Source: Terriglobia bacterium (GTDB taxonomy: Bacteria > Acidobacteriota > Terriglobia > Bryobacterales > Bryobacteraceae). Taken from it: 64,000 nucleotides of DNA. The DNA is taken from positions 1 through 64,000 of the forward strand of contig JAIQFI010000007.1 of assembly GCA_020073345.1 (NCBI GenBank), read 5' to 3'. Positions 3,468 to 10,046 of the stretch are shown piece after piece. Under the pieces are notes generated by a model. The model saw only the letters and a list, made by a program, of their open reading frames with translations. It did not search any database and was not told the origin of the DNA. A program made the position numbers and the translations under genes. Positions within the stretch are counted from its first letter, which is position 1; the number at the start of each line of letters is the position of its first letter.

Positions 3468-3571
3468 GAAAGCCAAGCACTTACAAGCGCCACACCGCTC
3501 CAGTTCAGCACAACGCCGGCCGGAGCTTTATTCCCGGAACGTCTCCGAACGGGAACGGTGCTAAGAAAATC

Positions 3572-3820
3572 TCACCGGGGCGCATTCACCGATTGCCCGT
3601 CTTCGAGGGTGTAGATGTCCTGCCGTGAATCCCGCAATTCGTCTGACCATTCTCTAGCAATCCCCTGCTGCCAGGCGATGCCACCTTCATCTTCATCTGG
3701 CAAGAGGACGATCAAGCGCACCGGCCCAGATGGAACCTCCGCCGGTACTTGGGCTCGTAGTCGATGTTGTTCATCGATATCGCCGACCAGTTCGATGGCT
3801 TTCATGGGAGTAGTGTCCAT
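3572..3820 (-). CDS. Small antitoxin-like hypothetical protein (82 aa)
   Basis: MKAIELVGDIDEQHRLRAQVPAEVPSGPVRLIVLLPDEDEGGIAWQQGIAREWSDELRDSRQDIYTLEDGQSVNAPR resembles small TA-associated hypotheticals; no partner toxin seen downstream. Confidence 0.6.
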   Translation of the reverse strand: MDTTPMKAIELVGDIDEQHRLRAQVPAEVPSGPVRLIVLLPDEDEGGIAWQQGIAREWSDELRDSRQDIYTLEDGQSVNAPR

Positions 3821-4043
3821 TCCGAGTCTTTGTGAGCATCCAAATCATAGCAAATTCAAATGTTCGCGAACGCGACCCTGTGGGCACCTCACTCCTCCGC
3901 CGCTCTACTCCGACAAGACCACTTCCAACTGGTTCACGGCTGCCCTCTGCTGCGCCAAATCGGAAATTGTATACACCGCCACAGAGACACCGAGACCGTG
4001 TCCCTGCTGACCTGCCACGCTGGGCTTGGCTTAGATAGAACGG

Positions 4044-4760
4044 CTAGTTTCGAGCGCGCACTTGAATCAGGCGAATCTGTGTCTTCCACTGTTCTGGGGT
4101 GCAGGATCCCGCAGTCCTGTCCTTCGCGCAATACAAGAGGTGGACAAGTGAATAGCGTGTGCCTGGCGCGACCGTGGCTGTCTCAATCTGCGTATCGAAC
4201 TGAGTCCCGGAAGGATCGTAGTAGCCCAGGGTGAAGAATATCGTGGCAACTTGAGTGCATTCGTTCAAGACCGTTGCTTGTAATCGTGGAATGTTAGACT
4301 GCAGGACCGTTCCCTGAAGTAAGTAGGAACCGCCGCTGACGTTATGGATGTCGCGAACACTAATGCACCCCTCGACTATCGCTTCTTGGGACGGAAGGGG
4401 AGAAATCTGAGACCGTCGGCTAGATCCCGGTGTGTTTGGAAGCCTGAGCGTGACGGTCGCGTTCGCATTCACTCTGGTGTCCACCTCGATAGGTGCAGTA
4501 CTCCCGCTCTTATCCTCCGCCCAGATTAAGTATTTCCCCAACGGGAGATTGCTATAGGAAAAGTTCCCGCCCTTCGCGGTTTTGACCCAGTAATGTTTTT
4601 TGGCACCGACTGGTTCGATACGGACAGTCGTGCCCGAAGCAGCCTGCCCATCCGCACCGATTACGGTTCCCGTTATCAAAGATCCAGCTGCTTCGGCGGA
4701 CGGCAGACAGATCAAGAAGAGTGCAGCAAATATCGTTATCTTGGGGACCCGCAGTCTCAT
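4044..4760 (-). CDS. Secreted protein with carboxypeptidase-regulatory-like (CarboxypepD_reg/Cna-B-like) domain
   Basis: Signal peptide, then GTVIGADGQAASGTTVRIEPVGAKKHYWVKTAKGGNFSYSNLPLGKYLIWAEDK. Confidence 0.7.
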   Translation of the reverse strand: MRLRVPKITIFAALFLICLPSAEAAGSLITGTVIGADGQAASGTTVRIEPVGAKKHYWVKTAKGGNFSYSNLPLGKYLIWAEDKSGSTAPIEVDTRVNANATVTLRLPNTPGSSRRSQISPLPSQEAIVEGCISVRDIHNVSGGSYLLQGTVLQSNIPRLQATVLNECTQVATIFFTLGYYDPSGTQFDTQIETATVAPGTRYSLVHLLYCAKDRTAGSCTPEQWKTQIRLIQVRARN

Positions 4761-4882
4761 TCGGTGGTGCTCGTAACGAGATTACGGCAACGCTTAGGAG
4801 GAGTGCAAGTGTGGCTCCCCCTTCGGCCTAACTGGATGACACCGACCAGGGTAAGTACCCCAGGCCGGGCAACGAGCGCATC

Positions 4883-5828
4883 CTACTCCCAGGAATTGCT
4901 CACCACAATTCCCTTCTCAGCCTGCCGCGACCACTCGTTCCAATATGGGAGACGCGAGATTAGGAAGGCGCGGCGTTCCTTACTCATCCACGCGTTCCGT
5001 TCAAGCGCTTCAGGAATGCCCTCGATCATTGCGAAATCTTTTGCAAACGCCGGACCGAGCTTGAATGTTGGTGGGACGGCCAAGGCGCGGTATTTTTGAT
5101 CTGCTCTTTTTGTTACCGTCGGGTACCAACTGCAGTTCCTTGCGGGCGTTAGACGGTCGAATGTCATCACCACTTGTCCTGGCGGCTCCCACTGTTTTCG
5201 CAGTCGCTTCAGTTCTGGCCGCTCATCAAACTCCCGTCGACGGCCATAGATCAGAACGAACTGCGGGTTAAAGGTTAGGTGCCTCTTCATGTGGTCCGGG
5301 ATTTCGAAAGCTGAATAGCGCGCGATTCTCGTTCTGGTCCAGCCAAGCTTTCCATTGGGCAAGCTGGTTCAACACCTGCGTTAGATCGTGGTGAGGATCT
5401 CCAGCTTTCGTGAACCATTGCTTAGCCGGGCTTTCGATCTCGATGAACACCGGGGTTAAGTTCGCCGAATCACTTCCCAGCCAGATGAAGTCCGGCACCT
5501 TCGCCCCAATCCCCACCAGTGCGGCCTCGGAAAGGAGCGCTGCTGGGAAGGGAGGATGACCTGATGGACCGGTCATGCTATACGCGCCGGGCACAAGGGA
5601 CGGGTGATCGATTAGAAAATTGTGGATCGTTCGTTCATTATTACCTTCCTCGGAATTTAAGAGGCCGTGCCATTCGGCGATGAGCTTACTCTCGTATTCT
5701 TCCCAAGATATACAGGCGGGGGGATTCGCGTGCATCTCATATGTTGGGCGCAGCGACAAGGACATAGTATCAATTATCGGGGAATTGGGCTGTGTGGAGA
5801 TGGGCATGGATTCTAATAGCGCCTCCAC
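4883..5828 (-). pseudogene. Shedu SduA-like (DUF4263) nuclease, split by an apparent frameshift
   Basis: ORF 5828-5268 carries PDFIWLGSDSANLTPVFIEIESPAKQWFTKAGDPHHDLTQVLNQLAQWKAWLDQNENRALF. The overlapping ORF 5362-4883 in another frame continues the expected family C-terminus (PDHMKRHLTFNPQFVLIYGRRREF...ALERNAWMSKERRAFLISRLPYWNEW). Confidence 0.72.
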
Positions 5829-6008
5829 ATTCCGACCATGAGTCCGCTGCTCTTAAGCGAGCGCAGCGAAACTCATTACTCCAGTTACTCTATCCATCCC
5901 GAACTCTTGATACACTGAACGAGGAATGAGTGGGTTGCGGGGCCTGTAATCGACGCGTTGGGCGCGCAAGTCTTTTATTTACGAACGCTCGAAAATCTTC
6001 CAAGCCAG

Positions 6009-6084
6009 GCCGGGATAGCTCAGTTGGTAGAGCGCTAGATTTGTAATCTTGAGGTCACCGGTTCGATCCCGGTTCCCGGCTCCA
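6009..6084 (+). tRNA. tRNA-Thr (anticodon TGT), CCA encoded
   Basis: GCCGGGATAGCTCAGTTGGTAGAGCGCTAGATTTGTAATCTTGAGGTCACCGGTTCGATCCCGGTTCCCGGCTCCA. Confidence 0.96.
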
Positions 6085-6090
6085 TTTCCG

Positions 6091-6498
6091 CTACACGAGA
6101 ACCAGCGCGTGGCCGTGGTTGTGCTGCTTTCGCCCGTGCTTCTGGCCCGACTTCGGCTTCGTCGCGGCGGGCCTCTGCGCCGGTTCGTCTCCCGTAATCC
6201 CGCTTAGAACCACCGGCCCACGATCCGGGAATACAACGACCAGCGAGAGATCCCCACCCAACGCTCTAACATTCTTCTGCAATGTGGAGAGCAATAAATC
6301 ACTGCGTTGTTCCAGCCGCGAAACACTGTCCTGGGTGATTCCGAGCTTCTTGGCCATGTTCACCTGCGTAAGCTTGCGCGCCTGCCGTAGTTCCCGCAAG
6401 GTCATCTCTTCGGCAATCAACTGCGCCGCCCGGCGCTCCACCTTCTTGCGCTGTGCGGGACTCAGCTTCTTGATGATGTCGTTCACGTTCGTGGCCAT
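6091..6498 (-). CDS. XRE-family HTH transcriptional regulator / antitoxin-like
   Basis: LRELRQARKLTQVNMAKKLGITQDSVSRLEQRSDLLLSTLQKNVRALGGDLSLVVVFPDRGPVVL: HTH_XRE plus the short C-terminal domain typical of HigA/antitoxin-like XRE proteins. Confidence 0.85.
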   Translation of the reverse strand: MATNVNDIIKKLSPAQRKKVERRAAQLIAEEMTLRELRQARKLTQVNMAKKLGITQDSVSRLEQRSDLLLSTLQKNVRALGGDLSLVVVFPDRGPVVLSGITGDEPAQRPAATKPKSGQKHGRKQHNHGHALVLV

Positions 6499-6573
6499 GA
6501 TTACTTCTTCCCTCTTCGTCTCATTGCCTTGTCAGCTTCAACCCGCCAACTCACTCTTGTAATATGATATTAA

Positions 6574-6598
6574 GTACATATGATGTACAGTACATATG
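6574..6598. promoter_or_regulatory. Putative operator for the XRE regulator: GTACAT-ATG-ATGTAC followed by GTACATATG
   Basis: Perfect 6-bp inverted repeat plus a third half-site, 76 bp upstream of the XRE start codon. Confidence 0.5.
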
Positions 6599-6646
6599 GC
6601 AGGCGTCCGAGAATCGAGCATGCCAAAAGGTTTGGCGGAAGCGATG

Positions 6647-6684
6647 AATCTTGAGGCCACCAGTTCGATCCCGGTTCCCGGCTC
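6647..6684 (+). repeat. Duplicated tRNA-Thr 3' fragment (att-like)
   Basis: aatcttgaggccaccagttcgatcccggttcccggctc versus tRNA 6045-6082 aatcttgaggtcaccggttcgatcccggttcccggctc. Confidence 0.8.
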
Positions 6685-6689
6685 TATCC

Positions 6690-7046
6690 TCAGGAAGTCC
6701 CCGCGAGCATCGCCGTCCACGACTCCTCATCGTGGCCGACGCTCAACAGCTTTCCGCCGCGAACCAGGGGAAGCCGGAGCAGGCTCGGATCCCGCTCGAT
6801 CCGCTCCAGAAGCTGAGTATCGCCCATCCTGAGGTACTTGAGGCCAGCATCGGCATAGGCCTTGCCCTCCGCGTCGAGCAGTCCCGCCAAACCGAAACGA
6901 TCCACGAATCTCTTGATTTCGCCGCGAGCCATGGTTTTCTGCCTCAGATCCACAAACTGAATCACGACGCGGCGCTCTTTGAAGAACCGTTCGGCGGCGC
7001 GGGTAGCCTGGGAATTCTTCACACCGAAGATCTGAACACCAACCAT
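6690..7046 (-). CDS. ArsC/Spx-family (arsenate reductase-like) protein
   Basis: From internal ATG: MVGVQIFGVKNSQATRAAERFFKERRVVIQFVDLRQKTMARGEIKRFVDRFG...LRLPLVRGGKLLSVGHDEESW; ArsC-family fold pattern. Confidence 0.78.
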   Translation of the reverse strand: MVGVQIFGVKNSQATRAAERFFKERRVVIQFVDLRQKTMARGEIKRFVDRFGLAGLLDAEGKAYADAGLKYLRMGDTQLLERIERDPSLLRLPLVRGGKLLSVGHDEESWTAMLAGTS

Positions 7047-7068
7047 CTTCTTGCCATAATATCGGAGT

Positions 7069-8007
7069 ATGTCAAAACGAACGCTACCCACAATCACCTT
7101 GCTGGCCGTTGGAATATGCGCCGGACATTGCTTCGGCCAAGGCGTCACCGAGATCACTCTTCCCGCTACGCGGATATTTCCGGAGAGCATTACCTCTACT
7201 GCCGATGGCACTTTGATCGTTGGGAGCCTGGGGCATGGCAACGTGCTGCGGATCGCGCCCGGGAAAACTACCGCGGAAGAGTGGATCAAGCCCGGTACAG
7301 GCGGACTCAACGGCGTGCTCGGCGTCTACGCCGACGAGAAGAACAAGCTACTGTGGGTCTGTTCCAACAATCTGGAGAACAAGGGCGAGGCGACGGCTGT
7401 GATGACCTTCGATCTGAAGAGCGGCGCGCCCAAGGGAACGTATCGCTTGCCGGGCGACATGGCGCTGTGCAACGACATTGCGGTGGGATCGGACGGCACG
7501 GCCTACATCGCGGACACGCGCCAGAACAGCATCCTGATGCTCAAGCCCGGAGCGAAGGCTCTGGAGGTCGCCGCCAAAGATCCACTTCTGGCTGGCGCCG
7601 ACGGACTCGCGTTCGGCGACAAGACCACGCTCTATGTGAACAGTGTGACCGCCGGCAAGCTGCTTCGCCTGGACCTGGGCCCGGACGGGAAGTCGAAGAA
7701 GGTTACCGACCTCAAACTTCCCCGGCCGCTGGACCGGCCTGATGGGATGCGGGCCATCGGGACGCACCGGCTGCTGCTTGCGGAAAACTCCGGGAAAATG
7801 TCCCTCGTGACCTTCGCGGGTCCGGAAAATCAAAATGTCGTGATCGGGACGCTCAAAGAAGGGCTGGAGGCCACGCCGGGCGTAACCGCCACGCGCGGGA
7901 TGGCCTGGCTCATCGAAGGAAAGTTGAACTACCGCAACGATGCGGCGCTGAAAGACAAGGATCCCGGGACCTTCAAAATGGTCGCGGTTCCTCTTCCGAA
8001 GAAGTAA
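7069..8007 (+). CDS. SMP-30/gluconolactonase-like beta-propeller protein, secreted
   Basis: Signal peptide; repeated propeller motifs (SITSTADGTLIVGSLGHGNVLRI, NDIAVGSDGTAYIADTRQNSILML). Confidence 0.75.
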   Translation: MSKRTLPTITLLAVGICAGHCFGQGVTEITLPATRIFPESITSTADGTLIVGSLGHGNVLRIAPGKTTAEEWIKPGTGGLNGVLGVYADEKNKLLWVCSNNLENKGEATAVMTFDLKSGAPKGTYRLPGDMALCNDIAVGSDGTAYIADTRQNSILMLKPGAKALEVAAKDPLLAGADGLAFGDKTTLYVNSVTAGKLLRLDLGPDGKSKKVTDLKLPRPLDRPDGMRAIGTHRLLLAENSGKMSLVTFAGPENQNVVIGTLKEGLEATPGVTATRGMAWLIEGKLNYRNDAALKDKDPGTFKMVAVPLPKK

Positions 8008-8018
8008 AGCGGAATGGT

Positions 8019-8336
8019 CTAGTCGCTCTTTGGAGCAACTTCCTCCACCTTGACGCCGACGTAGTATTCGGCGCCTTCGCAGGTGCAATACCTGGTTTCA
8101 GCGTGAGCTACGGAATCGGTCAGGTGGATGCGGATCAGCGACCCGGGAGACAAGAAGAACGGAAGGCTCAGCTTCAAGCTTGATTCCCCGACATCAAGAA
8201 TGCGAGCCTTCACGGCATTTCGTACGTGCGGACTAAGCACATCGATGACGGTATCTCCTACACACGCAGTGCGGGCATCGCTTCGACGGTCTAGGCGGCC
8301 GAAGTGGGTATTACGTGATGACGTGGATATCGCCAT
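8019..8336 (-). CDS. PilZ-like domain protein
   Basis: 105 aa from ATG 8336: RLDRRSDARTACVGDTVIDVLSPHVRNAVKARILDVGESSLKLSLPFFLSPGSLIRIHL...YYVGVKVEEV; RR-start and D-x-S-x-x-G-like pattern. Confidence 0.6.
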   Translation of the reverse strand: MAISTSSRNTHFGRLDRRSDARTACVGDTVIDVLSPHVRNAVKARILDVGESSLKLSLPFFLSPGSLIRIHLTDSVAHAETRYCTCEGAEYYVGVKVEEVAPKSD

Positions 8337-8426
8337 ACACTCCTCCGGCACCCAGACTAACAGCGTTCCGGCCGCAAAACGCTCGGGGAAACACCTGTAT
8401 TTGGACGGCGGTGTAGACTGAGGACC

Positions 8427-10046
8427 ATGAGGCGCGGGGTACTGCTGGCTCTCTGTGTAATAGGAGCCGTGTCGGGAGCAGTCATCCAGCCTCTGCCCAT
8501 AGTTCCCCGCCCTATGGTGATGCGGCAGCTGAATGGAAACTTCCTGCTGGGCCCGTCGGCCGCCCTTTATGCCGAAGGTGATGCGCGGCCCGTCGCCCAA
8601 TGGTTTGCTGAACAACTCCGTTCCGAGTTCGGAATCGCGGCGGAGGTCGCTGCCCAGTCCCCGCGCGGGAAAGCATTCCACTTTCTTCTCGACGAGAGCT
8701 CGCCTGAAGAAGGCTACCGCCTGCGGATCGAGCCGCGCGGCGTCACCATCGTGGGCCGTCCCGCCGGGTTGTTCTATGGAGCGCAATCCGTGCTCCAACT
8801 CGCGGCGGCGCGCAGCGGGGCGACGTTCGTTCTCCCCGCGGCAGAGATCCAGGATCAACCTCGCTTTCCTTATCGCGGTCTTCACCTGGATACGTCGCGC
8901 CATATGTTCCCGGTAAAGTTTCTGAAGCGCTACCTGGATTGGATGGCGCGCTACAAGCTAAACCGGTTCCACTGGCACCTCACCGACGATCAAGGCTGGC
9001 GCATCGAGATCAAGCAGTACCCGCGCCTGGCGGAAGTCGCCTCGATGCGGAAAGAGACGCTGGTCGGCCACGCACCGCAATCGACCCGGTACGACGGCAA
9101 ACCGTACGGCGGATTCTACACGCAGGAACAGATCCGCGAAGTGGTGGCCTACGCGCGCGAACGTTTCATCACGGTGATTCCGGAGATCGAGATGCCCGGC
9201 CATTCACTGGCCGCGCTGGCGGCGTATCCTGAGCTCGCGTGCACGGCGGGCCCGTTTGAAACCGCGACCACGTGGGGCGTTTTCAAAGACGTCTACTGCC
9301 CCAAGGAGAACACCTTTCAGTTCCTGGAAAACGTGCTGACCGAGGTCATGGAGCTGTTCCCTTCGAGCTACATCCATATCGGCGGCGACGAAGTTCAAAA
9401 GGACCGCTGGAAAGAAAGCCCGGCTGCGCAAGCCGTGATCCGCAGGGAAGGATTGAAGGATGAAAGCGACCTGCAGAGCTACTTCATCCGCCGGATGGAG
9501 CGCTTCATCAACTCCAAGGGCCGGCGGATGATCGGGTGGGACGAAATCCTGGAAGGTGGCCTGGCTCCCGACGCGACGGTGATGAGCTGGCGCGGCGAGG
9601 ACGGCGGTATCGCAGCGGCCCGGCAGGGCCACGATGTCATCATGACGCCCGACGCGTATCTGTATTTCGATCACTACCAGGGCGATCGTAATCAGGAGCC
9701 TCTGGCCATCGGCGGAATGTTGCCGCTCGATAAAGTGTACAGCTACAATCCGGCGCCCGCGGCGCTTAGAGCGGATGAAAAGCAACACATCCTGGGCGCG
9801 CAGGCCAATGTCTGGACCGAGTACATCGCGGATTCCCGTCAGGTGGAATACATGCTGTTCCCGAGATTGTTCGCGCTGGCCGAGGTGGTGTGGTCGCCAC
9901 AAGAAAATCGAACTTATCGCGATTTCATAAATCGCGTGCCGCCGCAGCTCGCGCGGCTCAAGCGGCAAGGCGTGAACTATCGCGCTTTGGACGCATTCAA
10001 AGCGCAAAGGGCGCGGCGCGCACCAAAGAACAACGATAAGAACTAG
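8427..10046 (+). CDS. Beta-N-acetylhexosaminidase, GH20
   Basis: YRGLHLDTSRHMFPVKFLKRYLDWMARYKLNRFHWHLTDDQGWRIEIKQYP, HIGGDEVQKDRW, IGWDEILEGG; catalytic GGDE present. Confidence 0.95.
   Translation: MRRGVLLALCVIGAVSGAVIQPLPIVPRPMVMRQLNGNFLLGPSAALYAEGDARPVAQWFAEQLRSEFGIAAEVAAQSPRGKAFHFLLDESSPEEGYRLRIEPRGVTIVGRPAGLFYGAQSVLQLAAARSGATFVLPAAEIQDQPRFPYRGLHLDTSRHMFPVKFLKRYLDWMARYKLNRFHWHLTDDQGWRIEIKQYPRLAEVASMRKETLVGHAPQSTRYDGKPYGGFYTQEQIREVVAYARERFITVIPEIEMPGHSLAALAAYPELACTAGPFETATTWGVFKDVYCPKENTFQFLENVLTEVMELFPSSYIHIGGDEVQKDRWKESPAAQAVIRREGLKDESDLQSYFIRRMERFINSKGRRMIGWDEILEGGLAPDATVMSWRGEDGGIAAARQGHDVIMTPDAYLYFDHYQGDRNQEPLAIGGMLPLDKVYSYNPAPAALRADEKQHILGAQANVWTEYIADSRQVEYMLFPRLFALAEVVWSPQENRTYRDFINRVPPQLARLKRQGVNYRALDAFKAQRARRAPKNNDKN

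Follow-up and report, generated by a model that had tools for sequence, protein, structure and literature searches.

How did a short stretch of DNA with a single gene come to lie between a threonine tRNA gene and a second copy of the 3' end of this tRNA? The locus belongs to the 6.23-Mb genome of an uncultured acidobacterium (Bryobacteraceae) and is located in the window (the whole stretch of 64,000 nucleotides that was analysed, the start of contig C19). The first-pass annotation had described a tRNA-bounded cassette and had named two possible origins, a satellite mobilised in trans or the scar of a larger element. We consider it probable that the cassette is a decayed tRNA-integrated element, a remnant resembling a CIME, which carries an orphan HigA antitoxin. 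The features of the locus are as follows.

3468-6008, no strand assigned: insertion of 2.5 kb between tRNA-Gly and tRNA-Thr with a frameshifted Shedu gene (context, outside the cassette)
6009-6084, + strand: intact tRNA-Thr(TGT), the target gene, presumably restored by the insertion (ARAGORN; Rfam RF00005, 70.7 bits)
6045-6085, + strand: attL-like core, tRNA nt 37 to the 3' end (direct repeat D1, 93% over 41 nt)
6091-6498, - strand: HigA-type XRE antitoxin, 135 aa (PF01381, 3.9e-08; PDB HigA2, 4.1e-08; relatives paired with PF05973 HigB)
6501-6554, - strand: higB stub, six codons from the GTG start on (VSWRVE), then 11 further codons and TAA
6555-6597, - strand: retained higBA promoter/operator region, aligned together with the higB start to intact operons
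6649-6686, + strand: attR-like displaced tRNA-Thr 3' fragment, decaying (two genome-wide matches only)
6690-7049, - strand: ArsC-like gene, directly after tRNA-Thr in the empty-site genome G019 (PF03960, 5.8e-12; synteny)

The displaced 3' end of tRNA-Thr

The displaced fragment lies 3' of tRNA-Thr in the same orientation. Positions 6649-6686 are identical to 6047-6084 at 35 of 38 nucleotides, and the alignable block (6045-6085 versus 6647-6687, 93%) has an offset of exactly 602. The duplication and its offset had been reported correctly by the first-pass annotation, the identity of 36 of 38 given there had not. The match starts with tRNA nt 37, which immediately follows the anticodon, and runs up to the 3' CCA; 5' of nt 37 no similarity between the two copies was detected. 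Of the three changes in the displaced copy one breaks the T-stem and one alters the CCA. This copy was not called by Rfam, which found nothing beyond tRNAs. All other matches to the 38-mer within the window are located in other tRNA genes and reach at most 28 of 38 positions (27-28/38). Thus, chance similarity is excluded. A search of the whole genome with the 22-nt core of the repeat, allowing one mismatch at most, led to these two places only; a second Thr(TGT) att copy was not found. The extent from anticodon to CCA, the presence of a 3' fragment only and the restriction of the core to two places in the genome support the att-like duplication proposed earlier.

The DNA between the copies comprises 564 bp. 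It contains only the higA ORF and the higB stub and has no room for an integrase, whose absence had been stated before. Neither an integrase nor an excisionase was found at this att site. The stop codon of the XRE ORF is 6 nt away from the tRNA-Thr end and not 7 nt, as was noted previously.

Empty sites and other insertions at tRNA genes

For comparison 23 genomes of the genus, one per species, were examined. The cluster Thr(GGT)-Tyr-Gly-Thr(TGT) adjoining the ArsC-like gene is kept in two other congeners, G019 and G020. Both lack the cassette: in G019 tRNA-Thr is followed by 7 nt and then ArsC, in G020 by 6 nt and then a C-terminal fragment of ArsC. The empty alleles that the first-pass annotation had suggested looking for do exist, and fixation of the cassette across the clade, which would have spoken against its proposal, is not observed. 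A search for XRE relatives in the genomes of G019 and G020 gave no match. In the window the displaced fragment is followed by ATCCTCAGG and then ArsC, which corresponds to TTCCTCAGG and then ArsC after the tRNA of G019. Hence, the ancestral junction is marked by the displaced fragment. The 602 bp (positions 6047-6648) are an insertion, which is absent from G019 and G020. The tRNA-Thr of G020 is 95% identical to that of the window, the one of G019 only about 73%, so the empty-site match of G019 rests on synteny and flank.

The ArsC fragment of G020 is followed by an unrelated stretch of 1.2 kb and then by an intact ArsC copy; a tRNA-Thr 3' fragment was not found in this genome. The tRNA-Thr locus of G020 thus holds a different insertion, which duplicated ArsC. 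Positions 7016-8910 of this locus (L058, G020:C44) comprise, after tRNA-Thr, the ArsC C-terminal fragment, a 404-aa ORF with no family match and the intact ArsC. Around the unlinked tRNA-Thr loci of G014, G010, G001 and G008 the tRNA-Thr end is not repeated, and no larger allele at Thr(TGT) was detected among the 23 congeneric genomes. The tRNA-ArsC junction is known only from G000 (the genome of the window), G019 and G020: the ArsC-like protein as query gave no match against the genome contigs, and 25 further ArsC loci at family level have no tRNA within 1.5 kb.

In the window 2.5 kb separate tRNA-Gly from tRNA-Thr; the corresponding spacer of G019 and G020 has 21-22 nt. With this additional insertion the tRNA cluster is an insertion hotspot. 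The spacer of the window contains a Shedu (SduA) anti-phage gene (4883-5828, - strand) split by a single frameshift into two overlapping ORFs, which match positions 5-147 and 147-289 of PADLOC PDLC00398; it is either a pseudogene or an assembly error. An 82-aa ORF (3572-3820, - strand) converges on the 3' end of tRNA-Gly and mirrors the position of higA at tRNA-Thr. By eye it is antitoxin-like, a family match was not obtained.

A second cassette was identified in the same genome (L196, G000:C23:130000-142000, positions 5390-7525). It consists of tRNA-Cys(GCA) and a perfect 3' repeat of about 69 nt, the copy lying downstream at a distance of 2056 bp, and encodes an HTH_17 protein, a membrane-like protein and a PadR regulator; no integrase was recognised. 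The genome has 26 matches to tyrosine integrases (PF00589) above the Pfam cut-off, none of them in the tRNA-Thr cassette, and several are located less than 1 kb from tRNA 3' ends. Together with the tRNA-Cys cassette this indicates that integration at tRNA 3' ends is routine in this genome. At a further locus (L206, G000:C44:1-5000, positions 500-900) two tRNA 3' fragments 244 bp apart, with no full tRNA, sit inside an apparent inverted repeat of about 370 bp.

An orphan HigA antitoxin and its deleted toxin

The 135-aa protein matches HTH_3, and its PDB matches are HigA2 (best) and HigA3 of M. tuberculosis. Its last 20 or so residues extend to the tRNA end and are missing from most relatives. 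Relatives at E<=1e-30 were found in 52 of 257 genomes of the order; the named ones belong mostly to Acidobacteriota, among them several Bryobacterales. In the majority of the 41 loci read, the relative is directly preceded by a PF05973 (Gp49/HigB) toxin gene. The window protein falls within the HigA family as well, the upstream HigB is reduced to a stub of 17 codons (6554-6501, VSWRVE-ADKAMRRRGKK). On sequence grounds the XRE gene is thus assigned as higA, the antitoxin gene of a higBA operon that has lost its toxin body. The first-pass annotation had recognised a single XRE gene, its HigA identity and the gutted operon had been missed.

About 300 bp of the toxin body are lost from the higB of the window. 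Promoter and higB start, which lie at -408 to -349 from higA in intact operons, are found within 108 nt in the window and are identical to those of intact operons at 42 of 60 positions (L093, L104). The alignment scores amount to 44-50 (L093, L101, L104) versus maxima of 28-34 for shuffled sequences. The -35 element reads TGTACA in the window versus TTGACA in the relatives. The 11 codons next to the six retained ones can be aligned only ambiguously with the higB 3' end.

Four or more further genomes of Bryobacterales show comparable deletions of the toxin with retained promoter. These deletions end at different points in G148, G205 and G096; in G201 the toxin is gone, and promoter and antitoxin adjoin. 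G215 has retained the promoter, and stops are present in its antitoxin gene. Pairwise dN/dS between the window antitoxin and ten relatives ranges from 0.09 to 0.16. This indicates constraint over most of the history of the antitoxin and says nothing on the period after the toxin was lost.

Related modules are also present at other tRNA genes. With tRNA 3' ends scanned as T-arm plus CCA, for which shuffled sequence gave one match in 460 kb, a higA module was found 28 nt from the 3' end of tRNA-Ser (G215), 104 nt from the 3' end of tRNA-Leu (G212) and 65 nt from a tRNA-Leu 3' fragment (G214). In G021 two tRNA-Val 3' fragments at a distance of 1.1 kb enclose a 5'-truncated higB and higA but no integrase; full tRNA-Val genes exist elsewhere in this genome. 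Outside the modules three five-pair T-arms occur in roughly 420 kb. By this estimate 42 modules should have about 0.3 of them nearby; four genomes with three distinct sites were seen. In the tree the two Leu modules group apart from the Val module, both groups being well supported, hence they represent separate events. That tRNA adjacency goes along with a broken toxin is no more than suggested by the data (Fisher p=0.08, all matches included; one "near" match is probably a chance T-arm). The Leu loci of G214 (L116) and G212 (L121) share a block of higBA, a VapC-like gene and a GMC oxidoreductase, which starts at the full tRNA-Leu in G212 and at a tRNA-Leu 3' fragment only in G214, where the left-hand context is different.

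Origin of the cassette

According to the proposed course of events, an integrative element carrying higBA would have recombined site-specifically into the 3' half of tRNA-Thr(TGT), most likely by a tyrosine integrase that targets the anticodon loop. Its attP copy would have rebuilt the tRNA, and the original 3' end would have been pushed downstream against the ArsC-like gene. In later decay the integrase and any other cargo would have been lost and the HigB body removed by an internal deletion, which would leave the promoter and the HigA antitoxin between attL and attR. From the repeat alone we infer an entry mediated by an integrase; a larger ancestor of the cassette is likewise presumed. Since the toxin half is destroyed, the cassette looks decayed. 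Its character as a foreign insertion is supported, and so is, of the two origins proposed before, the scar of a larger element.

Anticodon-centred attachment sites in tRNA genes were described for tyrosine integrases, and a displaced 3' fragment is the signature used by Islander (PMC4383910). Islands of this class resemble the cassette in the intact tRNA, the 3' fragment downstream in the same orientation and the identity from anticodon to 3' end. Unlike them, the cassette lacks an integrase and is hence rejected by the integrase filter of Islander. CIMEs (cis-mobilizable elements) are decayed ICEs or IMEs that kept attL and attR (PMC5704250). As in these, the cassette has att-like repeats at a tRNA 3' end and some remaining cargo, and genes for integration and transfer are absent. 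However, it is far smaller (602 bp, one gene), and no parental ICE or IME was found. The name applies if the parent was an ICE or IME, therefore the cassette is designated CIME-like. In the HigA sequence, the toxin-first order and the promoter region it corresponds to type II higBA operons (HigB PF05973 with an XRE-type HigA), but its toxin body is deleted and the antitoxin orphaned. We regard it as a known kind of genomic scar and not as a new mobile element; the type is ordinary, the details are neat.

An entry by homologous or illegitimate recombination, with no integrase involved and with donor DNA already carrying tRNA-Thr beside higA, is rather unlikely. A Campbell-type or flanking exchange could rely on the 38 nt of homology together with the tRNA, the locus of G020 has another insertion that is not of the att type, and other genomes also have higA beside tRNA genes. 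However, the repeat is bounded by sites of integrase action, namely the anticodon and the 3' end of the tRNA, and the tRNA sequence is common to G020, which has no higA, so that a donor tRNA is not required.

Less likely still is a minimal satellite-like, non-autonomous element that is moved via attL and attR by an integrase encoded elsewhere. Both att copies persist, cassettes with no recognised integrase recur (tRNA-Val in G021, tRNA-Cys in the same genome), and tyrosine integrases are numerous in the genome. Against such mobilisation, which had been the other origin suggested, neither a helper integrase nor a further Thr(TGT) att copy was found in the genome; moreover, the displaced fragment shows drift and the toxin deletion. 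Even the closest higA copies do not exceed 83% identity and have different contexts, so they do not form a recently mobile family. No close relative of the XRE protein was found in viral contigs or in phages (one weak match, 39%), and plasmid matches stay below 60% identity. The cassette also differs from PICI-like phage satellites, as it has no integrase, replication or packaging genes.

Broader than this, one might assume that Bryobacterales host recurrent integrase-less cassettes of less than 3 kb at tRNA 3' ends, which spread toxin-deleted HigA and other regulators with the help of resident tRNA-targeting integrases in trans; we rate this general claim as less probable again. Chance or paralogous tRNA similarity around a native higA, conceivable in view of T-arm sequences common to tRNA genes, is refuted by the empty sites of G019 and G020 and further disfavoured by the 35/38 identity and the rarity of T-arm plus CCA in shuffled sequence.

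For the remnant of a decayed tRNA-integrated element the function of the antitoxin has to be discussed. HigA probably still represses its own promoter. It may also neutralise related HigB toxins from other elements; intact HigB relatives are abundant in the order. Such anti-addiction is an established proposal for orphan antitoxins, and in a Klebsiella survey most orphan antitoxins were reported as degraded TA systems (both reviewed in PMC7354431). Like these, the window antitoxin is retained with its toxin gone; in contrast to them it is flanked by att-like tRNA repeats. Its retention by simple decay and by anti-addiction is equally possible.

The cassette would illustrate the stepwise decay of a tRNA-integrated element to nearly nothing, with the antitoxin surviving. 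The repeated deletion of the toxin and the modules at tRNA 3' ends in Bryobacterales may serve as natural cases for the question whether orphan antitoxins act in anti-addiction.
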